NCBI GenBank assembly: GCA_026874595.1
Contig: CM049319.1
Coordinates: 2,818,601 to 2,882,600 of the forward strand
Length of the DNA: 64,000 bases
Reading direction: 5' to 3'
Source of the DNA: Sipunculus nudus
Taxonomy: Eukaryota > Annelida > Sipuncula > Golfingiida > Sipunculidae
In this document: in pieces, positions 1,825-63,299 of the stretch
Layout: every line of letters begins with the position of its first letter
How positions within the stretch are numbered: the first letter of the stretch is position 1
Translations under genes and position numbers: made by a program
The notes under the pieces: generated by a model
What the model saw: the letters and a program-made list of their open reading frames with translations, nothing else
The model's database searches: none
Told to the model about the DNA's origin: nothing

Positions 1825-1969
1825 GTTTGTTGGTGGGGAGATCAACACTTGCTACAATGCTGTAGACAGACATGTTGATGAGGGGCGGGGCGACCAGGCG
1901 GCCATCATCCATGACAGTCCTGTCACAGAACATGTGTGTTACTACTCCTACAAGGAGCTTCAGCAAATG
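1825..1969 (+). CDS. ACSS3: ACSS3 exon 1 (first exon in window)
   Basis: The acceptor is tttgcttcag and the donor atg|gtgggt. The first base completes a codon begun in an upstream exon. It encodes [20 protein letters not shown] and then the [14 protein letters not shown] segment, the N-terminal ACS domain region typical of ACSS3. It ends in phase 0. Confidence 0.92.
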
Positions 1970-26600: not shown

Positions 26601-29600
26601 AACATTCTGACATTTATAGAGGTAAATAACCAGGGGAGCTCTGAGTGGAGTGCAGATCCCTCTTACAAGGCTTAACATTCTGACATTTATAAAGGTAAAT
26701 AACCAAGGGAGCTCTGAGCAGAGTGCAGATCCCTCTAACAAGGCTTAACATTCTGACATTTATAAAATTAAATAACCAGGGGAGCTCTGAGTGCAGTGCA
26801 GATCCCTGTAACAAGGCTTAACATTCTGACATTTATAGAGGTAAATAAGCAGGGGAGCTCTGAGCAGAGTGCAGATCCCTCTAACAAGGCTTAACATTCT
26901 GACATTTATAAAGGTAAATAACCAGGGGAGCTCTGAGTGGAGTGGAGATCCCTCTAACAAGACTTAACATTCTGACATTTATAAAGGTAAAAAAACCAGG
27001 GGAGCTCTAAGTGCAGTGCAGATCCCTGTAACAAGGCTTAACATTCTGACATTTATAGAGGTAAATAAGCAGGGGAGCTCTGAGCAGAGTGCAGATCCCT
27101 CTAACAAGGCTTAACATTCTGACATTTATAGAGGTAAATAACCAAGGGAGCTCTGAGCAGAGTGCAGATCCCTCTAACAAGACTTAACATTCTGACATTT
27201 ATAAAGGTAAATAACCAAGGGAGCTCTGAGTGGAGTGGAGATCCCTCTAACAAGACTTAACATTCTGACATTTATAAAGGTAAAAAAACCAGGGGAGCTC
27301 TAAGTGCAGTGCAGATCCCTGTAACAAGGCTTAACATTCTGACATTTATAGAGGTAAATAAGCAGGGGAGCTCTGAGCAGAGTGCAGATCCCTCTAACAA
27401 GGCTTAACATTCTGACATTTATAAAGGTAAATAACCAGGGGAGCTCTAAGTGCAGTGCAGATCCCTCTAACAAGGCTTAACATTCTGACATTTATAAAGG
27501 TAAATAAGCAGGTGAACTCTGAGTGGATTGCAGATCCCTCTAACAAGGCTTAATATTCTGACATTTATAAAGGTAAATAAGCAGGTGAACTCTGAGTGGA
27601 TTGCAGATCCCTCTAACAAGGCTTAATATTCTGACATTTATAAAGGTAAATAAGCAGGGGAGCTCTGAGCAGAGTGCAGATCCCTCTAACAAGGCTTAAC
27701 ATTCTGACATTTATAAAGGTAAATAAGCAGGTGAACTCTGAGTGGATTGCAGATCCCTCTAACAAGGCTTAATATTCTGACATTTATAAAGGTAAATAAC
27801 CAAGGGAGCTCTGAGCAGAGTGCAGATCCCTCTAACAAGGCTTAACATTCTGACATTTATAAAGGTAAATAACCAGGGGAGCTCTGAGTGGAGTGGAGAT
27901 CCCTCTAACAAGACTTAACATTCTGACATTTATAAAGGTAAAAAAACCAGGGGAGCTCTTGAGTGCAGTGCAGATCCCTCTAACAAGGCTTAACATTCTG
28001 ACATTTATAGAGGTAAATAACCAGGGGAGCTCTGAGTGGAGTGCAGATCCCTCTTACAAGGCTTAACATTCTGACATTTATAAAGGTAAATAACCAAGGG
28101 AGCTCTGAGCAGAGTGCAGATCCCTCTAACAAGGCTTAACATTCTGACATTTATAAAATTAAATAACCAGGGGAGCTCTGAGTGCAGTGCAGATCCCTGT
28201 AACAAGGCTTAACATTCTGACATTTATAGAGGTAAATAAGCAGGGGAGCTCTGAGCAGAGTGCAGATCCCTCTCACAAGGCTTAACATTCTGACATTTAT
28301 AAAGGTAAATAACCAGGGGAGCTCTGAGTGGAGTGGAGATCCCTCTAACAAGACTTAACATTCTGACATTTATAAAGGTAAATAACCAGGGGAGCTCTAA
28401 GTGCAGTGCAGATCCCTCTAACAAGGCTTAACATTCTGACATTTATAGACGTAAATAACCAGGGGAGCTCTAAGTGCAGTGCAGATTCCTGTAACAAGGC
28501 TTAACATTCTGACATTTATAAAGGTAAATAAGGGGGCTGGACATAGCCTAGTGGTTAAAGAACTGGACATTTAGAGCTGATGTCCCTGGTTTGAACCCTG
28601 TGAATTCATTGGTGGTATGTTGGTGAAATCTCGATAAAACCTCAGAGATTTGTCTAATGTCTTTCTAAAGGTTATGCATATATATAAATGTGAACTCCAG
28701 ACAGCTAACAAATAGCAAATCCTTTTCATTGTATTTTAACCTTCATCCATATTCAATAGACCTTGCCAGCAACAGGCCCTGGACCTATCCTCAAAAAAAA
28801 AAAAAAAAATTAATGCAATAATAATTATTTGCTGTGGTGGGATTCAATTTTAGTTGCTGTGCTTTTGGAAAAGTACATGATGATACAGGATAAGTGAAAA
28901 GCTCCTTAAAGAATCTGTTGAATCTTGAGAACAAATAGTTCTGATGGAAGAATTTTGCTGTCCTAAAGTGAACTATCATTGATTTTTTTTTGTGATAATA
29001 GGGTTCTCCAACCATTTGCATTCAACCCTGTCATGTCAAAACAATTAGAAGCAATATAACATAAAGCTGCCTTGTTCAGATTCGCAGTTATATTCATACA
29101 AGATCACATACATCTCTTAGGTCTCAAGCATTCAATCATTGTGTTTTGTAGCTTTATTTAAGTCCAAGATGCTGTGTTCATATACATTTTCTAAAAATAA
29201 AAACTAATTTTTAAATTGTAAATTAATGGGCTCACATGATTATTCTTGAAAGCTTATTACTGTTTCTAAATTGTTACATTGACAGTTACCTTAAATTTTA
29301 TGCAATTTACCTCTGGCTTATTTTCACCACAGAAAAAAGATAGACTTACATTTTTATCTTATAGGTGTGAAAGAAACTAAAGATGAAGTTTTGAAGAAGG
29401 TTTATCAAGTTGTCAGAGAACACATTGGGCCTGTTGCTGCCTTCAAACAGGCTGTCATTGTGGATAGGCTGCCTAAAACACGATCAGGAAAGATCCCTCG
29501 CAAGACTTTAGCTGCCATGGTGGCTGGAAAGCCATACAAGGTATGATCCCTGTTCATGTGTTATAATCCCTCTCTTGTTAGTCATGTGACATCCTGTGCT

Positions 29601-32600
29601 TAAATATGATTGGCTTATTGTACAAAGTTATGAACCAACAGATCTGGCTGCAGGCTGCAAACTGTTGCTTAAAATGAACACAGTTTTCGCCTGAATTTAG
29701 TTATCTTTCTCAGTATAAGTTTCTGGTTAAAGCATGTTCTTTAATGTTTATTGAACATGGCTTTTCAAGCTTGTTGCTTGAAAAAATGTTTGCTTATTTA
29801 AAGTGAGCAATATTTTGTTTGAATTATTTCTGAACAAGTATCGTTTTTCATTTGTTATTAGCCAGTAGTACTTGTACATCAGTCGTCTGTGACAGGCAAT
29901 TATATCTTGTCCATTAAATATACACTTATAAGTTTGAATCCTCTGATATTAAACCACTTTTTTACAGGTATATAACCACTCTGTTACAGGTACCTCTCTG
30001 AGACAGTCTAATTGCTCTCCTTAATGGTATACATGGATGTCTGTAACCTCACTGATAAAGGAACCATTCTGTTACAGATATGATCCAGAGCCTGCATCAT
30101 CTGTTTGTGTTTGTTATCATGACTTTCCGCTGTACAGTTATAAAATGGCAAATCTGTTACTCGCCTAGCCATAAACATACTTTTTGTCATATAAAGTGAT
30201 GAGTTCACCTTTACATCTGTCCTTTTCTGTTGAATCCTTGTATAACTATATACAGTGAAACCTCAATAGTGGGGACACCCTTGGGACTGGGAGAAGTTGC
30301 CCATTATATGGCATCATGACCGCAACATAAATAATGAGGAGAAAAAAGGGACTTTCAAATATGCCCACCATATACAGGTACCCATTTGAAGGAGGTGCCC
30401 ACAAGGAGAGGTTCCATTGTATATGCTCACGTTATAAAGATAAGCTTCTCTTTTGTACATACAGATCTCTTAATACAGATCTTTTGAATAACATGCTTTA
30501 TACAAACTGCAAAATCATTATGTAGTTAATTGTTCAAGTTGCTAGTGTTCACACAAAACAAAAATGCAGGAATTTTTTGTGTTAAATGAAGTAGTGTATT
30601 CATGCACATTGCTGCAAATTAAATCATATATTTTTTTTTCTGGCGTCTGTTTAAGATATTGGGCATTCTTGGTCTACTTTAATTGCTGGTCAGGATCTCC
30701 ACTCAACCTGATTCTTTAGGTTTCTTAACTAAGTCATTTAGCAGCAATAAATGCCTACCTTTTTATATTCTTGCTTCTAGAATCCTTTTCTTTCTCAGAT
30801 TGAAAAATTAAGTTTTTTTTTATTGTGCATATGCCTTGTAGATTCCATCCACCATTGAAGACCCATCTGTATACTTGGTTATCATACAGAATTTGAAGGA
30901 CGCAGGTTTTGATCCCAGCAGCCCATCAGAATAAGCATTTGTTTTTATGGTTAATATGACTTTTTATGTAGTTAATACAATGTCATCTGGAAGGTGGTGG
31001 CTACTAACCTGCACTTAACATTTACAATATTATGCTATATAATGTTGTAGTTACAGTAAACATCACTGCTGTTAGTGATCAGTGCCACCTAGTGTTAAGT
31101 CTTTAAATCAGAGTGTTTCCATTGCAGTACAGTTGTAACCTCTACACTTGTACATCATCTGTTCTAGGTAAGGATGATCATTTATTTTGTATTATGGAGT
31201 TTTCTCTCAGTGAAACGTCTGATTTATTAAATGGACACTAGATGGCATTGATCTTAATGTATTTAGGATGTGTTTACTCTAACATGAGCTTTTATTTATT
31301 AGCTCACCATTAGCTCATCATTAGTGTATTAATAAATGTGGCTTTAGTATGGTGATATTTATAAGAAAATACTACAAACATAACTATACTACTTATTAAA
31401 AATTTAAATATTTTAAACTCTGTTATACCAGAGTGTATAACATTCAATAATGCCTAAACATTTCAAAGTAAACAAAATAATGTTTATTGCCAATGTAGGT
31501 CATTTCGCAGGTCAAGAGATGGAAAATCTAGACCCAAAATGCACATTGATTTATGTAATAAAATTGCATAAAATATTTATGGAGCATCTCACATCAATTC
31601 TTCTTGTTGAGCACTTGATAAATTAGTAATTCCTATCGGGAGTTTTATGTTGGTCTCATATTCTGTTTTGCATATTTGATAACAATAATTACATTAATTA
31701 ATGAGAAGTTCCTGTTCATAGGTGTGGTGGTAGAATTCAAATTGCTGAAAACTGAGGAAAATTATATCACAAAATCCTAAAGTTTCTGTGTGATAACTCA
31801 TCAATTATAGATAAGAAATTTTTTATCGGTAAGAAATAATTGTGTCTGGGTGTAGATATGGCTGTGGTACAGCTAATTTTATGTCATCTGAACTGTACAC
31901 AGGACAAGGCCATGTTCCTCATTGTGTAGCTACCATCTCCCATATATGTCTGCCCTCCAATTTGGGAGACATATATAGTTTGTGCTGTCGCCACTGTCAT
32001 TATTTATGAATGCATTCACGTAGAACCAGTCATTTTTTTCATGAAATTCCAAATTTAAATTGTACCTAAAAATACCTCAGATAAGTTAGAAAACTGGTAA
32101 CCCAGACCTTCATCATCAAGCCGGAACAGAAATTATGTGAGAATGCTATAAATTTTGCGAGAATGCTATAACTTTAGAACCACTCAGTATACTTTTATGA
32201 ATCTTGACTCATAAAATGCTTCTATCAGAATCTTAGAAGTGAAAAAAACTGTGAAATTGACCTTCATCTGCAAGGTCAAATCAGTCAGAATAGAAGTTTT
32301 TTGTGAATGCTGTGACTTTAGAAGTAGTTCGTATTTCTTTCCTCAAATTTACGTATGGGGGGTCCATATGGAGGGGAGACGTATATCTGTTTTGCATTGC
32401 AAAAGCAACCTCATTCTAGTTCAACATGGTTATTGGTTGTGGCAAACCTGAAATTAGGTTTATGTGACCTATATTTATGTGCTTTTTAAAATTCTGTTGA
32501 GCTTCATGGCCCAAGGGTCACTAGTTTTAGTTCTCAGTCAGAAGTTTATGCTCAGTGTTTTATAACTAAGATGACCAGTTTTGATATTTTTTAATCTTGA

Positions 32601-35600
32601 ACCATTGTATATCTCAGACCCAGTGTTTAATGAGGTTTTCCTGCTCTGTATGTGCCTTGTAGATCCCGACCACCATTGAAGACCCAACTGTTTACTCACA
32701 TGTCATAAAGGATTTGAAGGATGCAGGTTTTGAAGCCAGCAGACCTTTAGACTAAGCATTTATTTTCTGATGGTTAATATGACTTTTTTTCTCATAGCAT
32801 ACCAAGATAACATAATGTCTGGGTGGTGGCTAACAACATGTCTCTAACTTTTCAAATGTGATACTGTAAAACCCAGTTTACAGTAACAATTACAAGCAGC
32901 AGTTGCCAGCACCACCTGGTGTTCAGTCTTGAAATTAAAAGTTCAATTTAACATTAACATTTATGTTAACATTAACATAAACATTAATCTATTAATCCTA
33001 TTTCAGTTGTTTCTTTATTATTCTGACAATCTGAATATTTAAAGTCCTGTAAAGATGTATTTTCAGGAATTCTCAGTGATAAAATTCTCTTCTGTAATTA
33101 AATTTGCCCTCAGTTTTTGTTTTAATGTATAACAAATACCCCAAGTGGCCTTGCTGAATAATTACTGTAAGTTTCTCTGTGTTTTACGGTACCACATGCT
33201 TCTTGCTGTAGATGCTGACTGCTGTTATGTTCTAACTGCTTGCTCTCTGCGGTGTTTTAATACATTGGAGTATAAGACTAGTAAATTGTAATTATGTAAA
33301 CATGCCGCCTTGTATTGCAATGATGATCAAGGAACTGCTGTGATCATAATTATGGTGCTTGTCCTATTAAAAGCTTATGCTTTGCAAGGGTGCATCGGGT
33401 ATGTAATGCCTGAACAATTAAATGATGTAAAACACTGTGCAAGTTAAAGAAAGACTCATTAAAGGTCAAGCGATAGAAAGATACAGATCCCCATTTTATT
33501 TGACAAAAATTAACATAAATCCATGTATTTAATACATAGACATTGAATGGGAAATTGCTACAGTTGGTGTAGCTACTGACATAGTAAATGATACGGTATG
33601 ACCACCAGTGATGGAGGCTTGGCCTTGGAAGGTAATGACTCAGACTCATAACTATTTTGTATACATGCATTTGAACTCAGTCCAGAATTCAGACATTGAT
33701 TCTTAGTTGTATGGACTTGGTTGGTGGTGATCCACCTGGGTCTCTGTGTTGGAGGGCCATTACACAGAATATGTCTTGACCTAGCCAAAGGGCCATGACT
33801 AAGCCACATCCTTGGAGGGCCATTACACAGAATATGTCTTGACCTAGCCAAAGGGCCATGACTAAGCCACATCCTTGGAGGTCCATTACACAGAATATGT
33901 CTTGACCTAGCCAAAGGGCCATGACTAAGCCACATCCTTGGAGGGCCATTACACAGAATATGTCTTTACCTAGCCAAAGGGCCATGACTAAGCCACATCC
34001 TTGGAGGGCCATTACACAGAATATGTCTTGACCTAGCCAAAGGGCCATGACTAAGCCACATCCTTGGAGGGCCATTACACAGAATATGTCTTGACCTAGC
34101 CAAAGGGCCATAACTAAGCCACATCCTTGGAGGGCCATTACACAGAATATGTCTTGACCTAGCCAAAGGGCCATGACTAAGCCACATCCTTGGAGGTCCA
34201 TTACACAGAATATGTCTTGACCTAGCCAAAGGGCCATGACTAAGCCACATCCTTGGAGGTCCATTACACAGAATATGTCTTGACCTAGCCAAAGGGCCAT
34301 GACTAAGCCACATCCTTGGAGGTCCATTACACAGAATATGTCTTGACCTAGCCAAAAGGCCATGACTAAGCCACATCCTTGGAGGTCAATTACACAGAAT
34401 ATGTCTTGACCTAGCCAAAGGGCCATGACTAAGCCACATCCTTGGAGGTCCATTACACAGAATATGTCTTGACCTAGCCAAAGGGCCATGACTAAGCCAC
34501 ATCCTTGGAGGTCCATTACACAGAATATGTCTTGACCTAGCCAAAGGGCCATGACTAAGCCACATCCTTGGAGGGCCATTACACAGAATATGTCTTGACC
34601 TAGCCAAAGGGCCATGACTAAGCCACATCCTTGGAGGTCCATTACACAGAATATGTCTTGACCTAGCCAAAGGGCCATGACTGAGCCACATCCTTGGAGG
34701 GCCATTACACAGAATATGTCTTGACCTAGCCAAAGGGCCATGACTAAGCCACATCCTTGGAGGTCTATTACACAGAATATGTCTTGACCTAGCCAAAGGG
34801 CCATGACTAAGCCACATCCTTGGAGGGCCATTACACAGAATATGCCTTGACCTAGCCAAAGGGCCATGACTAAGCCACATCCTTGGAGGGCCATTACACA
34901 GAATATGTCTTGACCTAGCCAAAGGGCCATGACTGAGCCACATCCTTGGAGGGCCATTACACAGAATATGTCTTGACCTAGCCAAAGGGCCATTACTAAG
35001 CCACATCCTTGGAGGTCCATTACAATGAATATGTCTTGACCTAGCCAAAGGGCCATGACTAAGCCACATCCTTGGAGGGCCATTACACAGAATATGTCTT
35101 GACCTAGCCAAAGGGCCATGACTAAGCCACATCCTTGGAGGGCCATTACACAGAATATGTCTTGACCTAGCCAAAGGGCCATGACTAAGCCACATCCTTG
35201 GAGGGCCATTACACAGAATATGTCTTGACCTAGCCAAAGGGCCATGACTAAGCCACATCCTTGGAGGTCCATTACACAGAATATGTCTTGACCTAGCCAA
35301 AGGGCCATGACTAAGCCACATCCTTGGAGGTCCATTACACAGAATATGTCTTGACCTAGCCAAAGGGCCATGACTAAGCCACATCCTTGGAGGTCCATTA
35401 CACAGAATATGTCTTGACCTAGCCAAAGGGCCATGACTAAGCCACATCCTTGGAGGGCCATTACACAGAATATGTCTTGACCTAGCCAAAGGGCCATGAC
35501 TAAGCCACATCCTTGGAGGTCCATTACACAGAATATGTCTTGACCTAGCCAAAGGGCCATGACTAAGCCACATCCTTGGAGGTCCATTACACAGAATATG

Positions 35601-38600
35601 TCTTGACCTAGCCAAAGGGCCATGACTAAGCCACATTCTTGGAGGGCCATTACACAGAATATGTCTTGACCTAGCCAAAGGGCCATGACTAAGCCACATC
35701 CTTGGAGGTCCATTACACAGAATATGTCTTGACCTAGCCAAAGGGCCATGACTAAGCCCCATCCTTGGAGGTCCATTACACAGAATATGTCTTGACCTAG
35801 CCAAAGGGCCATGACTAAGCCACATCCTTGGAGGTCCATTACAATGAATATGTCTTGACCTAGCCAAAGGGCCATGACTAAGCCACATCCTTGGAGGGCC
35901 ATTACACAGAATATGTCTTGACCTAGCCAAAGGGCCATGACTAAGCCACATCCTTGGAGGGCCATTACACAGAATATGTCTTGACCTACCCAAAGGGCCA
36001 TGACTAAGCCACATCCTTGGAGGGCCATTACACAGAATATGTCTTGATCTACCCAAAGGGCCATGACTAAGCCACATCCTTGGAGGGCCATTACACAGAA
36101 TATGTCTTGACCTAGCCAAAGGGCCATGACTAAGCCACATCCTTGGAGGGCCATTACACAGAATATGTCTTGACCTAGCCAAAGGGCCATGACTAAGCCA
36201 CATCCTTGGAGGGCCATTACACAGAATATGTCTTGACCTAGCCAAAGGGCCATGACTAAGCCACATCCTTGGAGGGCCATTACACAGAATATGTCTTGAC
36301 CTAGCCAAAGGGCCATGACTAAGCCACATCCTTGGAGCGCTATTACACAGAATATGTCTTGACCTAGCCAAAGGGCCATGACTAAGCCACATCCTTGGAG
36401 GGCCATTACACAGAATATGTCTTGTCCTAGCTAAAGGGCCATGACTAAGCCACATCCTTGGAGGGCCATTACACAGAATATGTCTTGACCTAGCCAAAGG
36501 GCCATGACTAAGCCACATCCTTGGAGGTCCATTACAATAATATGTCTTGACCTAGCCAAAGGGCCATGACTAAGCCACATCCTTGGAGGTCCATTACACA
36601 GAATATGTCTTGACCTAGCCAAAGGGCCATTACTAAGCCACATCCTTGGAGGGCCATTACACAGAATATGTCTTGACCTAGCCAAAGGGCCATAACTAAG
36701 CCACATCCTTGGAGGGCCATTACACAGAATATGTCTTGACCTAGCCAAAGGGCCATGACTAAGCCACATCCTTGGAGGTCCATTGCACAGAATATGTCTT
36801 GACCTAGCCAAAGGGCCATAACTAAGCCACATCCTTGGAGGGCCATTACACAGAATAAGTCTTGACCTAGTCAAAGGGCCATAACTCAGCCACATCCTTG
36901 GAGGGCCATTACACAGAATATGTCTTGACCTAGCCAAAGGGCCATAACTAAGCCACATCCTTGGAGGGCCATTACACAGAATATGTCTTGACCTAGCCAA
37001 AGGGCTGTGACTAAGCCACATCCTTGGAGGTCCATTACACAGAATATGTCTTGACCTAGCCAAAGGGCCGTGACTAAGCCACATCCTTGGAGGGCCATTA
37101 CTTGGCCTCTGAGGGTTGTAACTCGACTACAAAACTGAGGACCATGTTACATGGGCTGACAAAATTCTGTAACTGAGGAGTTCATTCCTGTGGCTCCTCT
37201 TCCTCCAAGATGATAGTTCTGGGCAAAAAAAAAAAATTATCTATGTTCAGCAGGTCAAACCCTGGTGTATTTTAATTTTTAGCTCAGCTGACTATAAGTC
37301 ATCTGAGCTATAGTCGTGGTCCATTGTCCGTCGTCCGTCCGTCTGTCTTGCTGTCCGTCCGTCCGTCCGTCTGTAGATGTGGCATGTTTTGAAACCGTAA
37401 GACCTAGGAATCCAAAATTTGGCATAATGTTAGATGTCCCCAAGATCTCCTACCAAGCTGAAAACTGGGTCTTTGCAGCTTCGTGCCTTTTAGAAATTAA
37501 GGAAAAACCTCAATTTTTTATTAAAAACCTATTTTTACACTTCAGGACTGCCTAATATCAAAACCACTCATCTGTTTTTCATCATATTTACCATAATTAT
37601 TCCTCTATATAGTTCCTATGTACATGCCAAAAATTATGTCTGTATTATGTAAATTTAAAAAGTTATGGGCCCAAACATAATGCATTGTGTAAAAAATCAG
37701 GAAAGATATTTGATCACTTAACACAAAATATGTTAAAGCTATAAACTTTTTTTCCAGTAATATAACTTTAATTAATCAAAATTAAATTGTATACCCAAAA
37801 TTAGATCAAAATCTTTTAAATTTTTTAAAATATTAACAAAAATAAAAAATTGGTACCTTAAATTTTGCCCAACTTTGACCATGGCACGTTTTTTTCCTGT
37901 AAGTACTGTGGATTTAATTTTCTAAGCATGTTTTTTTAGCATTTTGTCTGTAAACACCGAAAATTTGAAACCAGTTGATCAAAAACTGTAGATTTTATTC
38001 AAGTTTTCAAGCACCATGTAACATATTGTTTACATCAAGCTAGTGTCATGCAGTTTGCAAGTGCTCAGCTCCCCAGCTTCAGCTCTCAGTTCCTAAAATT
38101 TGGCATGCAATTAGATGTCTCAAAAATCCCCTACCATGCCAAGAATTTGGTCACTAGGACTTAATACCTTCGAGATATTAATGAAAAACGTAATTTTTCC
38201 ATTAAAAACCCATTGTTACACTTCAAGACTGCCTAATATCAAAACCACTGATCTGACTTTAATCATATATAATATACATATTTTTCTATACATTCTCTAT
38301 GAACATGCCAGAAATGATGTCAGTATTGCGTAATTGTTTTAAGTTATGGGCCCAAACATAATGCACTTTGTAAAAAATCAAGAAAAATATTTACTCCCTT
38401 AACAAGAGGATTGCTGAAGCTAGAGATTTTTTGTCAGAGATGTAACATTATTTAATCAAGATTCAATTGAATACCCAAAATTAGTTCTGAATTTTTCAAA
38501 TTTTATAAGTTATTAGTATAAATATAAAATTAGTACCTTAAATTTTGCCCAACTTTGACCATGGCATGTTTGTTTCATGTGAGCACTGTTGATATAATTT

Positions 38601-41600
38601 TCATATCATGCACACATAAAGATTTCAACTTTTTAGTTTAAAAAGCTGAAAGAAATTGGCCAAAAATTGTAGCTTTTATTAATGTTTTTATGAGACCATG
38701 TCAGACCTTGGCTCTCTGTAGCACCTCTTGAGTCACCTGTATGTTGACCTTGTTGAACTTTCAGCAAATTATGCATGCTTGAGGCGAGTCATAAACTGGG
38801 GCTCCAGGCAGCTTATTATATAATGGCCAGCCACAGTTGATCCAGGTGTCCAACCCAACTCATCTAGTAGTTTTAACCAACAACATAACAATAAACAATA
38901 AATTAATAAATTTTTATTGGTTTTTAATAACAAATTAAAGAAAAATAGAAAAGGAATTTGTTAGTTGATAATAACAGGAAATTAACTTGCAGTTACTGAT
39001 GATATAAGAATCTTGTATCGATGGATAGAATGTCACGTATTCCAAATAACACCATGCAGTCACCTATGGTATTTTTCAGTTCAATTTTAATGATAAAAAA
39101 GTAAATCATATTATTCATTACTAATCATTAGGGATCATATGAAGGAAATTAATGATAGACAATGATGCAGTTTATATTTAATATAAATAAAAGCCATAAA
39201 ACCAGGTACTTATGATCATTATTTAAATGTGTGAATTTTGTATATTCTGGATTCTCAACATCATTGTTTGGTGAAAACTGAATAAATACCAGACATGGTG
39301 TGAATACTTTGCAATTGTATTTAAACACTAATATGAATATGTACTCCATTATAAAATTTCTTTCATAAGAATGGGAATTCAGGTAAAAATGAAAGTATAT
39401 GAATACCAGTGCAAATACTTTCAAAATGTATTAATGAATGCATTCATGAATATATTCTTTAATATTATTTTAATAATCATTTCAGTCATATTTTATTTGA
39501 AAAAATCATAATATTCTCTTATATTTGGGACAATATTTGTAATTTTTTTAATAAATAGTTAAACTCTTATATTATATGTTCTGCTTAAATTTTATATGGC
39601 CAAGTCAAAATCTGTGTGACAATTGCACTCCATTTGTTTATAAAATAAATTAAATTAATCCTCTTTCCTGTCTCCAAAGTACTATCAAAATCATACATAA
39701 GCTAAACAACAACAAATCATAATACAGCTTATTTTTGTTACCACATAAAACCAGCATGTGCCTCATTTCTAAATCATACTTTTTTATCATATATAACAGC
39801 TGAGTGCCGTGACCCATAGGTCCCTTGTTTTAGTTTTAATATTGAAAAGTCTGAAGTCTTTACAATGTGATCAGGATGAGAAAGTCACTATATCAACAGC
39901 CGGGACATGGTTTTTATCTTGGTGCTGGTTCCAAGTAAACAGTTTGTTCCATATCTTGTCTGAGTTGACCCTAGGGAATGGTTTCAGTTCTTTTCACCAG
40001 GTGTCACTAGGTTCAACTTTAACTTTAAACTATTACCTCCATTGGAATTAACTGATATTCTGAATACCACAGTGTTTATACATTATCACTACATGTACTT
40101 GTGGTAATGCTTGAAATGTTTTGCAGTGAATGATGTATATAACACATTGTTTTCAGATCTATCTTACTGATATAACCTGCACAAAAATAGTTGATTCCAT
40201 AATATTCATCATTTTGTTGTATGGGCACACACATAGTAACACTTGCATTTACATATACCCTTTCTTACATATACATGTATGTTTATGGTTTGTGTATATT
40301 TGCAAGCGTGTGCTTTTTTTTTTATTTTAATTTGACACCTGATTGCCTATTTGTTGCATGTTGCAGTGAGATTTTGCTTCCAGAGCTTGTGCCATGCTTT
40401 GCAGTTTACCAGTCCTGCTTATTGTATAATGATCCATATCAAGATCACCATGCCACTGTAGTAAAAAGAATGCCCTTTATTAGGTGACTGTGTGTAAAAA
40501 TATTTTGTTTTATTAGTGATATCATATTTTATCAAAAATGTATTATACAGTGAAATTTTGTTTGCCAAGCAGTCAGAAAATAGTTAAACACATTCAAGGA
40601 TTAAAACATTGGGTTTCCTGGATAATAAGTTATCTAAACTTTGCAAGGATCTATAGATTATGCCTCTTTACACAGGATGTAAACTTTTAGTACCGAGTCT
40701 TCAGTTTTTTAGGACTGCCTTTATAACATGTATTTGGCTTTTTAGAAATAGGCTTTTTTAAAAAAAAAATCCCTGTCATATACAATTCTCCTGTGAACAC
40801 TAAAGCTGAAGGTTTTGAAAATCATCAAGGAAATAATATAGATAAGTTCTGATGTGTAAAATTGGACAAGTCCTGTGTTTACTAGTTGGTTAAATCTGTG
40901 GTTTAGGTTTATCTGACAGTGTGGACTTTCTAAAGGGTTGGAAATCAGTGGGAAACTATTAGATTATTGGAGATCCAAATATTGAAATGATGGATCTAGA
41001 CTAAATTACTTTCTGTTATTCAGGAAATGATAATTTAAATGTGCAACTAAATAAACCAGATTATATGCTTAATTTTTATCCTTCAGTTCAAAATATTCAA
41101 AAATATATTACTGTATTTTTCCCTGCTGCGTTTTTATTCTCAAATCAGGTTTTAAACATTTGACATAGGGGTTATTAAACATAATTGAGTTTGACTAAAT
41201 TGTTGTTCCCACACAAGCTACTGTGGTCTTGCAGAATAATGAAATTATGAATGTTAAAAATGGAATGTATTGTGCATGGGCTTCAGGTTCCAAGTGCTAT
41301 AGAAGACGCTTCAGTTTATGCTGCTATAACAATTGTTCTACGTGATGAAGGCTATGATCCAGTAGACCCGCCCGTATAGGTCATGTGACCTGTTGTGTCA
41401 CATGACCAATAGTAAATACTCATAGGTTTGTACCAAGTCCTCTCCTACACTCCCTCTCTTATACTGCACTTATGTAAAAAACGCTTATTTGCATGAGGCT
41501 CATTGATTGGCCAATGTACACTAATTAGAATTAGTCTTGTGTTGTCTTGTAGTCTAGTTGTTTGTTTATAAATGGTATATAATCTTTCATGCATGGTATA

Positions 41601-44491
41601 TTACAGTATATTCATTATTTAAACAAACTGCCGTTATATATAGACTTTTGCACAGATATGTTGTTTTGTCTTGTTGATTGTGTATAAATTATGCAAATTG
41701 ATACATGGTACATTTCAGCATGTTTATTCATTTAACAAAGTTAAATTATATTATACATATGAACAAAGGAACAATGTATAGTTTTAATGTAAAGTTAACA
41801 CTTTAAATTCTGGTAGTCAAGTAAATTTCAAGGTATTTCACCTACTGCACTGAAAATAAATTAATATTATAAAGCTTAGTATGCAGCCCATTTAAGGAAT
41901 TTAAACTGTTAAGTTGACCCTTTTATACACTGTGTTATAGTGTATGATTATTCTGCAATGAACGGGGGGAAATTTTTATTTTAAAGATTGTTTATCATGT
42001 TATTTATTTTTTTATGAATAAAACTAAATGATCAACCAACAATTAAAAACCAGAAGTAAAATCTCTTTTATTCTGATACTGTAAATTAATAAGGGGCAAT
42101 TGAATCTTGAGTAATAAGCCAAACTTGGGACCTGCCAAAACTGGTCTTAGTCCATAGGTGGTCTTATATAATTGGTCAGTTTTAACTGAAGTGGGTGCTT
42201 ACAGTCTTTTGAGAGAAGTGGTCTTTCAGACAGGTTCTCCTGTATTAAGCAACTCACTTTTAGCATCCCTGCTGGTTACCTTGTCTCCCACCAGATGTCA
42301 CCACTGCACATACTTCTGTAGAATCTTTTATCTTCTTTCAAATGCATCAGGCTTAAACTTCTGACAGCATAATTATTTAACTTACAAACAACCTCTTCTT
42401 CAGCAAACCTGCAAGGGGTCACTTTGTTATAACTCTACAGTTTAATTGATCAGACCTTGACACTTACCTGTATTACTATGGTAACAGTTTCTTGTTAAGA
42501 TTAGTACTTTCTTCAGGAGATTCTGAAAATGACAAACTATTACTGATGCACATTCACTCGCTTGCATTTTCCTTTAAATACACAAATGGTCTTTTTTTCT
42601 TTTTTTTTTATATGTATAATCTCAAGCAGCAGTTATTTGTTGCAGTCATTCCAGATCTCCTTTGTTATAACTGCTTTTTTTTTCAAGTTTCTTTGGGTCT
42701 CAAAAACAGGGCTGGCACAGGGCCATTAATCAGAGCAATGATAGCAGGGTGTTGCAGGTTTAAACCTCAGGGGTTATATGCACAATGGGATACATGTACC
42801 ATACTCACATTGGTCTGATTACAATTCTTTACCTGTGTCAGCCCTGGTGGTGAAACCTGGAGACTCTGGCTATACACAGCAGCGGTTAAAGCGAAGGAGA
42901 TTAAAAACAACTGCAGTGTGTAACCACTGCCTGAGGAGTGCATGTTTGGTGGCTGGACTTTTGATACAGTGGTTTAAATAAATTTAAATTCAAACTTGCT
43001 AAACGGGTAATTTATTAATTGAATCAGTATAATAAGTTAAAAATATTCTGTGTTGTTGAACTTTTGACACAGGTGTTAAGATTAACATAAATTTTAATAG
43101 CTGGTTGTTGAACTTAAAATAAAAGTTTTATTTTTTATCTTAAATGGAGTTGTTTAAACTTCCAAAAAAATTGTTCAGATTAATTTTGATTTAATTTTAA
43201 GTCTTGTTTATCTTAAAAAAAATTAACTATATTTTTTCTATCCTTGACACAGCCAAATTTTTTTTTAATTTCCAAGCAAGGTCAACAAGTGTATCAACCT
43301 TTTGTTGGTAATTTAAGTTACACAGTTAAAGTTACCTGCATTCACTCAATCACCACAAGTTTCATATTTTCTGGACTGTTATATTCTTATCTGTACATTA
43401 CCTAAAATCATACTTGTAGTTCCTTTCCATAAATCTTGAGCAAGAGATTTTATTAATTGAGACAGTAGATTTTTTTTCAGTGTAAATCACTCCAAGCTAC
43501 CGGACATAATTTAAATTCCAATAATTCTCTCCATAAATGGCCAATATATCTGAATAATATCTATTGTGGGACATTAGAATATATGTAAATCATACCTGAA
43601 ACAATCTGACCCAATCTTTAACAAATTAAATAGTACTAATATTGGTGGTAGTAGTTGTTGTAATTTGAAAGTTTATGTGAATATTACTTTTACTGATAGG
43701 AATATTTTGCTGCCAGTAATGAAGTGACCTTGTGAACAAAGATAGATTAATGATATTTATGTATTTATTGTCTTGCTAGTACATATTTCCAGGGTAATAT
43801 TAAACTATGTAATGTTTTTGTTTATTATTTCTGCTTCCTTATAACTGGTAATAAAGTGACTTGGTAAGTATGAATCCAGATTAAATATGTGCATATAGGC
43901 GGCTTACCTTTAAAATATAAAATAGTATATAGTGTAATGATGCAGTGATTGTATAAGTATTTAAAAGTAGCTCTTTAGTAGTTTGACTAAGGACTCTATT
44001 TGTATACAAAACATTTAACTGTTGGTTCTGATATCTTCTCTAAAAAATGTGAATCTTTTGTGTCAATGATGAGATTACATGCAATACACTAATATGAAAC
44101 AAAGTTTGATAATCAGTTGATGATTAAGTTGGTCAGATGGCATCTTCAGAGTCATGTTTTCATATACATTGTGTACATAGGTGAGTCTTTTAATAGAAAT
44201 GTGACTTATAATATATAATGGAGAATTTACTGTAATTATTTATTATCATATATAAAAGTCATTGTAAAATGTACACATAAATCAGAGATTAATATAAAAT
44301 GATGTACTGATTGAGCACAGGTTGAAGATGAAAATATATGTAATGTTGTTTATGGGATTTGTATTTTATTTATTTATTTTTTTTAACATTTATTTCAGAT
44401 TCCATTAACCATTGAAGACCCCACAGTGTACAGCAATATTATAAATGTTTTAACTCAACGAGGCTACAAGACATCAACACCCAGGAAGTAA
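1825..44491 (+). CDS. ACSS3: ACSS3-type acyl-CoA synthetase gene (spliced, 5'-incomplete, four alternative last exons)
   Basis: Family role: ATP-dependent ligation of a short-chain acid (propionate/acetate) to CoA, in the mitochondrial matrix in vertebrates. Fourteen exons plus one last exon join in frame to about 592 residues; the human protein has about 690, so roughly the first 95, with the start and any targeting peptide, lie left of the window. Motifs in order: [20 protein letters not shown] and [10 protein letters not shown] (exon 2); the AMP-binding P-loop [12 protein letters not shown] (exon 4); [12 protein letters not shown] (exon 6); [15 protein letters not shown] (exon 7); WWQTETGS across exons 8/9; TMDAGY and [20 protein letters not shown] (exon 12); GPVAAF and [13 protein letters not shown] with the catalytic lysine (exon 14). 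Motif order and exon phases fit ACSS3 better than ACSS1 or ACSS2. Every junction has GT and AG and all phases agree. No stop or frameshift is seen, so it looks functional. Confidence 0.95.
2571..2642. repeat. (TA)n microsatellite
   Basis: About 36 TA dinucleotides with one TG interruption, in ACSS3 intron 1. The flanks (2280-2400 and 2700-2780) hold short T-rich blocks with repeated 'actctttttt'. Confidence 0.95.
3256..3540 (+). mobile_element. Possible tRNA-derived SINE
   Basis: The stretch ggggtagagcacaggactca followed by gatcatgagttttaatctca resembles the A and B boxes of a tRNA-derived SINE head; a non-tRNA body continues to about 3540. There is no clear poly(A) tail or target duplication, so boundaries are approximate. 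Confidence 0.45.
3610..5430. mobile_element. Harbinger-like non-autonomous DNA transposon (1.8 kb)
   Basis: The ends are inverted repeats of about 33 bp: ggccagacttttttaatctt at the left and, reversed, ggccagacttttttaattct at the right; both then run ggtttacgaac. They are flanked by TAA at 3607-3609 and 5431-5433. A 3-bp TWA target duplication is the habit of PIF/Harbinger elements. No transposase ORF is visible inside, so it is a non-autonomous copy. Confidence 0.75.
4658..4769 (+). repeat. 55-bp tandem duplication
   Basis: Two nearly identical copies of a unit containing caatgtgatctccaatggaa and ttagcagttgttgtataatc, inside the Harbinger-like element. It looks like a recent duplication. 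Confidence 0.9.
5558..5746 (+). CDS. ACSS3: ACSS3 exon 2
   Basis: The acceptor is ttacataacag and the donor gccgag|gtaaga; 63 codons, phase 0 at both ends. It encodes [19 protein letters not shown], then [20 protein letters not shown] and the conserved [17 protein letters not shown]. Confidence 0.95.
5787..6290 (+). mobile_element. Dispersed repeat, copy 1
   Basis: About 500 bp similar to 14950-15455 in the same orientation; shared blocks include the tatgagaaatc and ggcagtca(a/g)ggtcactggtcac regions, a 'gatgtcat/gatgtcac' block and 'atggctactcat/atggctgctcat'. It has no coding sequence and unknown class, in ACSS3 intron 2. Confidence 0.7.
6450..6587 (+). CDS. ACSS3: ACSS3 exon 3
   Basis: The acceptor is ctttcatttcag and the donor catgaag|gtaagtg; 46 codons, phase 0. 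It encodes [20 protein letters not shown] and continues to NRKYMK. Its 3' end and donor have been copied into the following intron (see the junction repeat at 6624-6900). Confidence 0.95.
6624..6900 (+). repeat. Tandem copies of the exon 3 donor junction
   Basis: Exon 3 ends ..tgtatcattctcaacaggaagtacatgaag|gtaagtgcagc; degenerate copies of this junction follow about every 60-80 bp, near 6632, 6706, 6765 and 6847. The copy at 6706-6745 keeps an intact donor (acatgaag|gtatgt, GT at 6735). Exon sequence was therefore copied into the intron together with its splice site. Confidence 0.8.
7288..7431 (+). CDS. ACSS3: ACSS3 exon 4 (ATP/AMP-binding P-loop)
   Basis: The acceptor is tgaacttcag and the donor cccaag|gtgacg; 48 codons, phase 0. 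It encodes [20 protein letters not shown] and [13 protein letters not shown], the A3 P-loop of the adenylate-forming superfamily. The next residue, from exon 5, is Ala rather than the usual Gly after TPK. Confidence 0.96.
8045..10484 (+). mobile_element. Palindrome-ended element with internal tandem modules (intron 4)
   Basis: It starts with an imperfect hairpin (8047-8075, agctcagctgact and its near-reverse), then a ccgtccgtc stretch, and ends in gtcatgacccatgggtcact near 10475. Inside are about three modules of roughly 330 bp (8110-9150) and further modules of about 270 bp (9330-10180), several carrying the palindrome ggtggcgccacc. It has no ORF of note. The layout resembles molluscan non-autonomous elements with tandem cores, such as those described as pearl elements. 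Confidence 0.7.
10581..10661 (+). CDS. ACSS3: ACSS3 exon 5
   Basis: The acceptor is cttctcaaacag and the donor gagag|gttaga; 27 codons, phase 0. It encodes [20 protein letters not shown] followed by YGLKPGE, aligned with the family segment after the P-loop. Confidence 0.94.
10662..11454. other. ACSS3 intron 5, nothing recognised
   Basis: AT-rich, with a run of 'tatat/atgtaaata' steps at 11100-11230. No ORF or repeat family recognised. Confidence 0.6.
11455..11550 (+). CDS. ACSS3: ACSS3 exon 6
   Basis: The acceptor is tttgactgtag and the donor tacgag|gtatgt; 32 codons, phase 0. It encodes [20 protein letters not shown] and [12 protein letters not shown], a highly conserved block of the large domain. 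Confidence 0.96.
11906..12057 (+). CDS. ACSS3: ACSS3 exon 7
   Basis: The acceptor is ttgttttaag (weaker than its neighbours) and the donor cccca|gtaagt; 152 nt, ending in phase 2. It encodes [20 protein letters not shown] and then [15 protein letters not shown], the A4-like core. Confidence 0.95.
12058..14339. other. ACSS3 intron 7, mostly unremarkable
   Basis: AT-rich non-coding sequence. A stretch near 13360-13580 (gtggaccagagggtgttgga ... gggactcgatccctggtcac) looks like a decayed mobile element but cannot be classed. Confidence 0.5.
14340..14608 (+). repeat. Tandem copies of the exon 8 acceptor junction (72-73 bp unit)
   Basis: Four acceptors occur at regular spacing: AG ending at 14391, 14464, 14536 and the true 14608 (steps 73, 72, 72). 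Each is followed by a version of exon 8's first bases (tttccggaccatgttgatgg, tttctggaccatgtttatgg and so on) and by aatgttttgaatgataat-type intron sequence. Use of any of the three upstream acceptors hits a stop within about 12 codons. Confidence 0.92.
14609..14712 (+). CDS. ACSS3: ACSS3 exon 8
   Basis: The acceptor is tgtattgtcag and the donor gacag|gtcagt; 104 nt. It encodes [20 protein letters not shown] and ends in WWQT, the start of the A5 motif finished by exon 9. Its acceptor and first 25 or so bases are repeated three more times directly upstream (14340-14608). Confidence 0.95.
14950..15455 (+). mobile_element. Dispersed repeat, copy 2
   Basis: The second copy of the roughly 500-bp repeat at 5787-6290, in intron 8, ending close to exon 9. 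The two copies differ by many substitutions and small indels, so they are old. Confidence 0.7.
15576..15671 (+). CDS. ACSS3: ACSS3 exon 9
   Basis: The acceptor is tgcttattcag and the donor ggaatg|gtaaga; 96 nt. It completes [17 protein letters not shown] and continues to [11 protein letters not shown]. The A5 glutamate-threonine (TET) is intact. Confidence 0.95.
15672..16981. other. ACSS3 intron 9, nothing recognised
   Basis: Non-coding, AT-rich. Short open frames near 15841-16170 on both strands show no domain or family resemblance. Confidence 0.55.
16982..17045 (+). CDS. ACSS3: ACSS3 exon 10
   Basis: The acceptor is aatgtttcag and the donor gtgaa|gtaagt; 64 nt, phase 2 at the end. It encodes [20 protein letters not shown], a surface segment before the LPLPP motif. 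Confidence 0.93.
17046..17964. other. ACSS3 intron 10, nothing recognised
   Basis: AT-rich non-coding sequence with short tatgtgtatgtatgcgtata-like simple repeats near 17610. No gene seen. Confidence 0.55.
17965..18043 (+). CDS. ACSS3: ACSS3 exon 11
   Basis: The acceptor is tcttctccag and the donor ttcca|gtaagt; 79 nt. It encodes [20 protein letters not shown] and then NLYFNIP, leading into [10 protein letters not shown] of exon 12. Confidence 0.95.
18142..18258 (+). repeat. Acceptor-like motif repeated before exon 12
   Basis: The string (t)g(t/c)attacaaag occurs with AG ending at 18157, 18191 and 18240, and the true acceptor gtgtattacag ends at 18258. The repeats are short and imperfect, so this is a weaker example than the one before exon 8. 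Confidence 0.55.
18259..18381 (+). CDS. ACSS3: ACSS3 exon 12 (A7-A8 hinge)
   Basis: The acceptor is gtgtattacag and the donor gaagag|gtcctt (a GT donor with poor +3 to +6 bases); 41 codons, phase 0. It encodes [16 protein letters not shown] and [20 protein letters not shown], covering the ribose-binding aspartate and the hinge to the mobile C-terminal domain. Acceptor-like 'gtattacaaag' motifs recur just upstream. Confidence 0.96.
18634..22380 (+). mobile_element. Element with long satellite core (intron 12)
   Basis: It starts with ggggcctgcttgacaagcag (a small hairpin, gcttgacaagc) and a cttccgtccatcctt stretch; the right end near 22355-22380 (actagcagaaatgcggggcc) is roughly the inverse of the left end. 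The core, 18720-22200, is about 24 copies of a 145-bp unit. It has the same plan as the other palindrome-ended elements here, but a different family. Confidence 0.65.
18720..22200 (+). repeat. 145-bp satellite with 290-bp higher-order unit
   Basis: Each unit runs aactcaacaacaacatactg, then cagggatggttggtacctat, then ccaatatggccaccacagcc. In the middle the units alternate between two types (ttatttcgcgtgcgataact and tttctttcgcgcacgataac); the second type recurs at 19582, 19871 and 20161, a 289-290 bp period. Confidence 0.9.
22381..23310. other. Rest of ACSS3 intron 12, nothing recognised
   Basis: AT-rich non-coding sequence between the satellite-core element and exon 13. Confidence 0.5.
23311..23410 (+). 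CDS. ACSS3: ACSS3 exon 13
   Basis: The acceptor is ttaatgcag and the donor aagaaag|gtaaataa; 100 nt, ending in phase 1. It encodes [20 protein letters not shown] and then [13 protein letters not shown]. Its donor is also the left edge of a roughly 70-copy 73-bp repeat. If the intron were retained, translation would add Gly-Lys and stop at once (ggt aaa taa). Confidence 0.95.
23411..28530 (+). repeat. 73-bp satellite, about 70 copies, beginning at the exon 13 donor
   Basis: The unit runs gtaaataaccaggggagctc, then a variable tgagtgcagtgca/tgagcagagtgca block, then gatccctctaacaaggctta, ending acattctgacatttataaag. It starts at the exon 13 donor, so nearly every unit recreates aaag|gtaaataa. 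Some copies lost it (aaattaaataa) or changed it (aaggtaaaaaaac). Larger blocks repeat inside, for example about 26600-26960 and 28000-28350. The - strand open frames here are by-products. Confidence 0.95.
28531..28810 (+). mobile_element. tRNA-derived SINE
   Basis: An A-box-like tagcctagtgg at 28544-28554 and a B-box ggtttgaaccc at 28588-28598 have proper spacing; a body of about 190 bp follows, ending in an 18-A tract near 28793-28810. It sits directly at the right edge of the 73-bp array. Confidence 0.75.
29365..29540 (+). CDS. ACSS3: ACSS3 exon 14 (catalytic lysine, A10)
   Basis: The acceptor is tatcttatag and the donor tacaag|gtatga; 176 nt, ending in phase 0. It encodes [20 protein letters not shown] and [19 protein letters not shown]. 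The lysine of SGKI is the A10 lysine required for adenylation. It must be spliced to one of four downstream last exons for a normal stop. Confidence 0.96.
29541..30252. other. Start of ACSS3 intron 14, nothing recognised
   Basis: Non-coding. 'ctgttacagg/ctgttacaga' recurs at about 29980 and 30070, but no feature can be named. Confidence 0.5.
30253..30419. mobile_element. Small inverted-repeat element (pogo/Tigger-like MITE)
   Basis: The ends cagtgaaacctc and gaggttccattg are near inverse copies flanked by TA on both sides (30251-30252, 30420-30421), as expected for Tc1/mariner-pogo type insertion. At 167 bp it is non-coding. A related left end (acagaaaaacctcgtcaatg) occurs at 53130. Confidence 0.65.
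30842..30934 (+). CDS. ACSS3: ACSS3 alternative last exon A
   Basis: The acceptor is gccttgtag; phase 0, 30 codons plus TAA. The tail begins [11 protein letters not shown] and ends DPSSPSE, the closest of the four to the vertebrate ACSS3 tail (STIEDPS). About 250 bp of downstream sequence is shared with copy B, so A and B arose by a fairly recent duplication. Possible poly(A) signals are attaaa at 31226 and aataaa at 31331. Confidence 0.88.
   Translation: MPSTIEDPSVYLVIIQNLKDAGFDPSSPSE
31935..32530 (+). mobile_element. Palindrome-ended element, third family
   Basis: The left part has a hairpin (catatatgtct ... agacatatata, 31940-31980); the right end cttcatggcccaagggtcac resembles the 3' end of the elements at 8045 and 37281. 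The part at 32290-32420 is similar to the reverse complement of 54760-54900. Confidence 0.55.
32663..32755 (+). CDS. ACSS3: ACSS3 alternative last exon B
   Basis: The acceptor is gtgccttgtag; phase 0, 30 codons plus TAA. The tail begins [11 protein letters not shown], shares LKDAGF with A and ends SRPLD. It lies 1.8 kb after A with similar flanks (tgccttgtag before; tggttaatatgactttt after). Confidence 0.87.
   Translation: MPTTIEDPTVYSHVIKDLKDAGFEASRPLD
33751..37105. repeat. 63-bp satellite, about 53 copies
   Basis: The unit is ggagggccattacacagaat, atgtcttgacctagccaaag, ggccatgactaagccacatc, ctt. Copies are nearly identical; the main variant is ggagggcc versus ggaggtcc. Because 63 is divisible by three and two - strand frames lack stops, open frames of up to 905 codons appear; they repeat a 21-residue unit and have no sign of being a gene. 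The array lies between ACSS3 last exons B and C. Confidence 0.96.
37281..39832 (+). mobile_element. Palindrome-ended element (intron 14)
   Basis: It has the same left hairpin as the 8045 element (37281-37309), then gtccgtcgtccgtccgtctg, and ends in cagctgagtgccgtgaccca and tcccttgtttta. A module of about 500 bp occurs twice, offset by 680 bp (from 37411 and 38091). The remainder is AT-rich and non-coding. Confidence 0.7.
39833..41286. other. Intron sequence before last exon C, nothing recognised
   Basis: AT-rich. Short open frames at 40130-40490 show no recognisable protein family. Confidence 0.5.
41287..41379 (+). CDS. ACSS3: ACSS3 alternative last exon C
   Basis: The acceptor is gggcttcag; phase 0, 30 codons plus TAG. 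The tail begins [11 protein letters not shown], keeps the DEGYDP block and ends DPPV. It is more diverged (Pro to Ala after IED), but open and exactly the same length. A candidate poly(A) signal (aataaa) is at 41855. Confidence 0.85.
   Translation, partial: VPSAIEDASVYAAITIVLRDEGYDPVDPPV
41380..44398. other. Sequence between last exons C and D
   Basis: It should hold the 3' UTR of the C isoform (aataaa at 41855, another near 42016), then AT-rich sequence with the SINE-like repeat at 42705-42960. No further tail exon was found. Confidence 0.5.
42705..42960 (+). mobile_element. SINE-like repeat, copy 1
   Basis: It shares gggctggcac, a ggtctgattacaattct block, then ggtggtgaaacc and a cagc(a/t)g(c/t)ggttaaa-like block with 52539-52810. 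ggctggcacaggg and aggtttaaacctc resemble degenerate A and B boxes. Confidence 0.6.
44399..44491 (+). CDS. ACSS3: ACSS3 alternative last exon D
   Basis: The acceptor is tatttcag with a strong T-rich tract; phase 0, 30 codons plus TAA. The tail begins [11 protein letters not shown] and ends KTSTPRK, basic where A, B and C are acidic or neutral. Candidate aataaa signals follow within about 100 bp (near 44587). It could be the ancestral last exon or the most distal duplicate. Confidence 0.87.
   Translation: MPLTIEDPTVYSNIINVLTQRGYKTSTPRK

Positions 44492-55594: not shown

Positions 55595-63299
<7,705 letters not shown>

Follow-up and report, generated by a model that had tools for sequence, protein, structure and literature searches.

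How does an enzyme gene end when four candidate last exons of equal length follow it in a row? This question is raised by a stretch of 64,000 nucleotides of the sipunculan Sipunculus nudus (assembly GCA_026874595.1, 1.43 Gb in 153 contigs; contig CM049319.1, positions 2,818,601 to 2,882,600, forward strand), which we call the window and whose first letter is position 1. The original prediction regarded these exons as interchangeable ends of the acyl-CoA synthetase ACSS3, that is, as a cassette giving one catalytic core four C-termini, and took their intact frames to suggest selection on all four copies.

The synthetase gene and its array of last exons

Searching with two bacterial propionyl-CoA synthetases as tblastn queries, we found one ACSS3/PrpE-type gene on the plus strand, extending from 1825 to 29540. 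The gene is intron-rich, and 13 core exons could be placed in it by tblastn, with the splice sites read from the sequence:

1825..1969, + strand, core exon
5558..5746, + strand, core exon
6450..6587, + strand, core exon
7288..7431, + strand, core exon
10581..10661, + strand, core exon
11455..11550, + strand, core exon
11906..12057, + strand, core exon
14609..14712, + strand, core exon
15576..15671, + strand, core exon
17965..18043, + strand, core exon
18259..18381, + strand, core exon with a weak donor, GAG/GTCCTT
23311..23410, + strand, core exon
29365..29540, + strand, last shared exon, with the motif PKTRSGK and the donor AAG/GTATGA in phase 0

This model lacks one or more short exons in the interval from 15671 to 17965, and N-terminal exons were not found in the 10 kb upstream, where all matches had E >7. 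The number exon 14, which the original prediction gave to the last shared exon, is therefore provisional. The assembled pieces of the predicted product match the Pfam models AMP-binding (2e-66) and AMP-binding_C (8.6e-26). Among the NCBIfam models, propionate--CoA ligase is the top one for the N-terminal piece (2.2e-129, below the whole-protein cut-off), and with the C-terminal piece it comes narrowly second (2.1e-43) to acetate--CoA ligase (8.4e-45), both again below their whole-protein cut-offs. The AMP-binding, AMP-binding_C and propionate--CoA ligase models support the predicted identity to the extent that the gene appears to be of the ACSS3/PrpE type. PKTRSGK in the last shared exon is the catalytic-lysine motif (A10-type).

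Two further features lie in or near the gene. A minisatellite of about 70 units of 73 bp (23407..28531) starts at the exon/donor border of exon 23311..23410, and its unit holds a copy of the donor of this exon (AAAG/GTAAAT, 48 exact copies; AGGTAA, 67 copies), so that decoy 5' splice sites stand by the dozen at the start of the intron. Downstream of the gene and convergent to it lies an open reading frame on the minus strand (55595..56680), which encodes a TRAF-type MATH domain (Pfam TRAF-mep_MATH, 2.3e-44).

The four 93-nt exons that had been proposed as alternative ends are all present beyond the last shared exon (the evidence gathered on each is given in brackets):

30842..30934, + strand, terminal exon A, 93 nt (sequence, genome search with tail A, simulations, bacterial profile)
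32663..32755, + strand, terminal exon B, 93 nt (sequence, genome search with tail A, simulations, bacterial profile)
41287..41379, + strand, terminal exon C, 93 nt, further from the family pattern than the other three (sequence, search with tail C, simulations, profile)
44399..44491, + strand, terminal exon D, 93 nt, with the top acceptor score among the four (sequence, search with tail D, simulations, profile)

Each of them has an AG acceptor (TAG directly before A and B, CAG before C and D), 30 open codons and a stop of its own, as proposed. The predicted phase 0 junction was likewise found: the shared exon closes at 29540 on a complete codon, and hence any of the four would continue its frame. 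A to D are thus homologous terminal exons arranged in tandem, in the same phase and with their own stops, spaced at 1.8, 8.6 and 3.1 kb along the array. Counting residues, the net charge of the tails is -4 in A, -3 in B, -5 in C and +2 in D; the prediction is right in that D is basic, but the most acidic tail is C, not A or B. The array contains repeats as well. Between exons B and C lies a second minisatellite (33749..37101; about 53 units of 63 bp, 97% matches), which yields minus-strand open reading frames of 905 and 710 codons consisting nearly entirely of repeat, and directly after the stop of exon C (41380..41406) the perfect 10-nt inverted repeat GTCATGTGAC/GTCACATGAC is found, its arms 7 nt apart.

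Relation to the family C-terminus and copy number in the genome

Human ACSS3 and bacterial PrpE share a C-terminal element, P-x-T-I-(D/E)-D-P ... L ... G, which in the bacterial proteins directly follows the catalytic-lysine stretch, as the tails do here. For comparison we used six bacterial PrpE tails (L001, L002, L003/L004, L005, L006 and L008; the identical L003 and L004 were counted once, and L008 comes from a bacterial-type contig of the same assembly). A BLOSUM-averaged profile built from these six alone was scored at all six-frame positions of the window, and exons A to D took ranks 1 to 4 (49.5, 47.0, 46.5 and 35.7). Since the next score is 18.3 and the maxima in 10 first-order Markov windows were 15.5-25.8, chance is excluded for the four exons. 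In the bacterial tails, 12 of the 24 columns compared are conserved (P2, T4, I5, D/E6, D7, P8, I/V10, L11, E13, I/V14, L18 and G22). Ten of these, a set which omits L11 and E13 and was chosen after the tails of the window were known, are all kept in A, B and D, and eight of the ten in C, which is without the family-conserved T4 and P8. Counted over all twelve columns, A, B and D keep 10 each and C keeps 8, because L11 (Y instead) and E13 of the bacteria are absent from all four tails. All tails retain the hydrophobic anchors and a P-x-(T/A)-I-E-D core, but differ from one another between these points and over the final seven positions. The profile ranks show that the four tails are duplicates of the regular C-terminus of PrpE-type enzymes. 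An unrelated new cassette is ruled out by the alignment to the bacterial ends; what the array repeats is no addition to the enzyme but the conserved C-terminus of its family. The bacterial genes differ in that each annotated one compared has a single tail, and in that L11 and E13 are kept.

Searching the whole 1.43 Gb genome with tail A (E<=10) returned exactly four matches, namely exons A to D. With tail C as the query C and A were found, with tail D as the query D, B and A; tail C misses B and D, which shows that a fifth tail elsewhere, if strongly diverged, could escape such a search. The last shared exon has one full match in the genome, at 100%, and 22 others at 52 or 59% on ten other contigs: 11 at 52%, within a 637-residue open frame, and another 11, each 41 residues long, at 59%. 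Seven of the 11 long matches were fetched (L008-L014, from contigs C61, C90, C91, C62, C66, C69 and C71; the four further full-length ones were left out), and these are intronless, bacterial-type prpE genes (motif checked in all seven, open reading frames listed for L008). As the seven loci fetched from the contigs of these other matches carry bacterial-type prpE, the ACSS3-type gene appears to be single copy outside these contigs.

The bacterial-type loci themselves fall into three groups, with 2-5 differences within a group. The 3' end of prpE is present three times in the group of L008, L009 and L011 (its two additional copies separated by 279 bp), twice in that of L012 and L014, and once in that of L010 and L013. 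An open reading frame beside prpE in L008 is presumably prpB. These loci suggest that the bacterial-looking contigs represent several symbiont or contaminant genomes. A search for stray relatives yielded none among 27 pattern stretches in a collection of viral contigs and four among 200 in a collection of genome contigs, all four being bacterial PrpE loci.

Origin, constraint and probable use of the four exons

The neighbourhoods of exons A and B can be aligned well beyond the coding sequence (blastn and alignment):

30760..31108, + strand, duplicated block holding exon A together with its acceptor region and the first part of the 3' UTR
32579..32935, + strand, duplicated block around exon B

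These blocks of about 350-360 bp, including about 175 nt of 3' UTR, share 68.8% identity over 359 alignment columns. In a finer alignment 74 of 93 nt are identical in the exon, 56 of 88 in the upstream flank and 122 of 171 in the downstream flank; the distance is 0.24 in the coding part versus 0.40 in the flanks. No indel separates the 93 coding nucleotides, compared with seven events in 259 aligned flank sites, a difference for which the chance of no indel alone is 0.08. A and B thus arose rather recently, from a duplication which included the acceptor and the 3' UTR. D shares an alignable stretch of 67 nt with A and one of 55 nt with B (blastn), reaching at most 34 nt upstream of the exon, and the flanks of C gave no blastn alignment with the other copies beyond pieces of chance length. 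C and D are older than the A/B duplication. Between any two copies, 19 to 46 of the 90 coding sites differ.

Pairwise substitution rates were estimated by NG86. For A/B, dN is 0.21 and dS 0.38 (ratio 0.56, from 20 synonymous sites); in the five deeper pairs pS is 0.56-0.82 versus a pN of 0.35-0.45, with dS saturated or >1, and where dN/dS could be computed it is 0.40 for A/D, 0.12 for B/D and 0.66 for C/D, whose dS of 1.04 is lower than that of any other old pair. The ratios of A/B and C/D on their own therefore indicate mild constraint only. Neutral simulations were run as well (20,000 per tail, starting from the present sequences; the branch length was half of the distance in the A/B flanks for these two tails and, for C and D, an assumed 0.5, half of the dS of 1.04): the frame, the stop and the ten family positions survived together in a fraction of 0.006 for A, 0.0076 for B, 0.0005 for C and <0.0001 for D. 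Rerunning them with all 12 columns gave 0.007, 0.006, 0.00005 and 0, respectively. An intact frame and stop alone survive neutrally in 0.32 of the runs for A and 0.31 for B. These results support constraint on all four tails, least clearly on A and B. Speaking against it are the present sequences as starting point, the assumed branch length for C and D, the loss of T4 and P8 in C, and the neutral survival of frame and stop in about one run out of three for A and B. The claim of selection on every copy is upheld in so far as such retention would be improbable under neutrality for each tail, and weakened by the ratios of 0.56 for A/B and 0.66 for C/D.

Concerning the splice signals, a crude acceptor matrix derived from 13 sites of the same gene was applied to 826 intronic AGs: D reaches the 99.9th percentile among them and C the 98.4th, whereas A reaches the 90.2nd and B the 84.9th. 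In leave-one-out scoring the acceptors of the gene itself range from 1.1 to 10.3, a span which includes A (4.1) and B (2.7). AATAAA or ATTAAA hexamers occur after every terminal exon, yet they are common throughout the introns and therefore uninformative as poly(A) signals. Within 400 nt after B or C no match to GTRAG was found; after D there is one at 308 nt (CTGTAAGT), and after A there is the following site:

31166..31173, + strand, donor-like AG/GTAAGG, 231 nt past the stop of exon A (consensus match only)

Considering all these findings, the gene probably carries tandemly duplicated, mutually exclusive terminal exons, its shared exons joining one of the four and one core thus receiving four C-termini. 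Repeated duplication of the terminal exon at the 3' end, most simply in three events with A/B as the latest, would have produced the array; the shared exons up to 29540 would be spliced to one of the four homologous last exons, and the product would be one synthetase core with four versions of a conserved 30-residue C-terminal element. Use of all four exons is inferred, and so is their mutual exclusion, since each has its own stop and the first one spliced in would set the C-terminus, whatever follows. The choice among them may be made with separate poly(A) sites or with one distal site.

It is conceivable, if clearly less probable, that a single last exon does the work (most likely D, or A) and that the remaining intact copies are by-products of exon duplication, either in decay or seldom used. 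Exon D has the best acceptor and all ten tested family positions; A and B are recent enough for an intact frame and stop by themselves to be nothing rare; two conserved residues have been lost in C, and the dN/dS ratios of A/B and C/D are not low. Against this stands the joint retention of frame, stop and family residues, improbable under neutrality for each tail, as well as the age of C and D, whose dS (1.04 between them, >1 or saturated versus the others) is a long time for an unused frame of 90 nt to stay open. Quite improbable is a use of the array other than by alternative polyadenylation, in which a single distal poly(A) site serves all exons and an upstream terminal exon simply precedes the downstream ones in the mRNA, its stop codon fixing the C-terminus. 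The alternative oxidase (AOX) of oysters works in this way, and its transcript AOXB has both duplicated exon 10s (PMC5589949). Through the donor-like site after A, exon A could keep its stop and still precede a downstream exon in one mRNA, but there is no such match within 400 nt after B or C, mRNAs with a stop upstream of a junction might be degraded, and the spacing of the array would make unspliced read-through long. An origin of the array in faulty assembly, or in several gene copies, is hardly credible. Long tandem arrays nearby, such as those of the 63-bp and 73-bp units, can disturb assembly; however, 19 to 46 differences in 90 coding sites are too many for haplotype or duplication errors, and the shared exon has only one match at 100%, the other 22 being at 52 or 59%. 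On divergence and single-copy status we reject this explanation in both its forms, and return to four alternative last exons as the preferred one.

Possible role of the tails and comparison with known systems

In acyl-CoA synthetases the C-terminal domain is mobile. The alignment to acetyl-CoA synthetase 1pg3 ends at residue 643 of that structure, corresponding to query residue 75; counting back from there and assuming no gap, position 14 of the tails lies at residue 641. This position is I in A, C and D and V in B, while many of its neighbours and the last seven residues differ. The original work on the substitution L641P was reportedly done in Salmonella. The same change has been used to render E. 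coli Acs insensitive to acetylation (PMC6036698). Given that the tail comes next to the catalytic lysine within this domain, on its C-terminal side, the four versions are likely, as a fair guess from their position, to tune domain docking or recognition by lysine-modifying enzymes rather than to confer a new activity. A bolder and rather doubtful extension would be that the gene makes four enzymes differing only in the tail beside the catalytic lysine, the choice of the last exon according to tissue or condition setting the strength of switching by lysine acylation or the partner docked; if true, a core metabolic enzyme would be regulated by swapping its regulatory tail.

Tropomyosin, a muscle and cytoskeletal protein and not an enzyme, is one of several systems to which the array can be compared. 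Duplicated terminal exons are already known as a layout, also in a mitochondrial enzyme of a mollusc: in AOX of Crassostrea virginica and C. gigas, exon 10 and part of the 3' UTR are duplicated, and the copies have their own stops, encode proteins of equal length and are used in a stress-dependent manner, with 14-15 differences in 41 residues (PMC5589949). The likeness to the present gene is close, comprising an enzyme that is mitochondrial in the oysters and presumably here, and a terminal exon with a partial 3' UTR in tandem, with own stops, equal length and divergence. The differences lie in the number of copies (two versus four), in the enzyme, and in the fact that splicing and its response to stress were demonstrated by experiment in the oysters, whereas the splicing proposed here is a prediction from sequence. 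In humans, 236 events of tandem-exon substitution have been counted, 77 of them C-terminal, and three tandem 3' exons are present in human TPM1, fly Tm1 and worm lev-11 (PMC9741552); ACSS3 did not occur in the sections consulted. The tropomyosins named there resemble the ACSS3-type gene in having homologous tandem 3' exons for alternative C-termini, and differ in having three of them instead of four. Serpin-1 of insects likewise combines a constant core with homologous alternative C-terminal exons: PpSerpin-1 of a wasp has 21, 16 of which have orthologues in another wasp, and in Manduca the alternative exons encode the reactive-site loop, as the title of a reference states (both from PMC10513286). 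The 21 exons in the wasp, and the reactive-site loop in Manduca, contrast with four copies of a conserved tail in S. nudus. For ACSS3, no description of a duplicated last-exon array was found in the literature searched, most of it outside subscription journals, which agrees with the original prediction, where no such description was known.

If all four exons are used, the gene would give an enzyme of central metabolism four homologous last exons in a row, more copies than in oyster AOX (two) or in the tropomyosins named above (three). Nature would thereby offer one unchanging catalytic core with four variants of its tail, in a region where a point change is used to make a related enzyme insensitive to acetylation. 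Use of all four would further suggest that the duplication of terminal exons is a recurrent route by which metabolic enzymes may be diversified without duplication of the gene.
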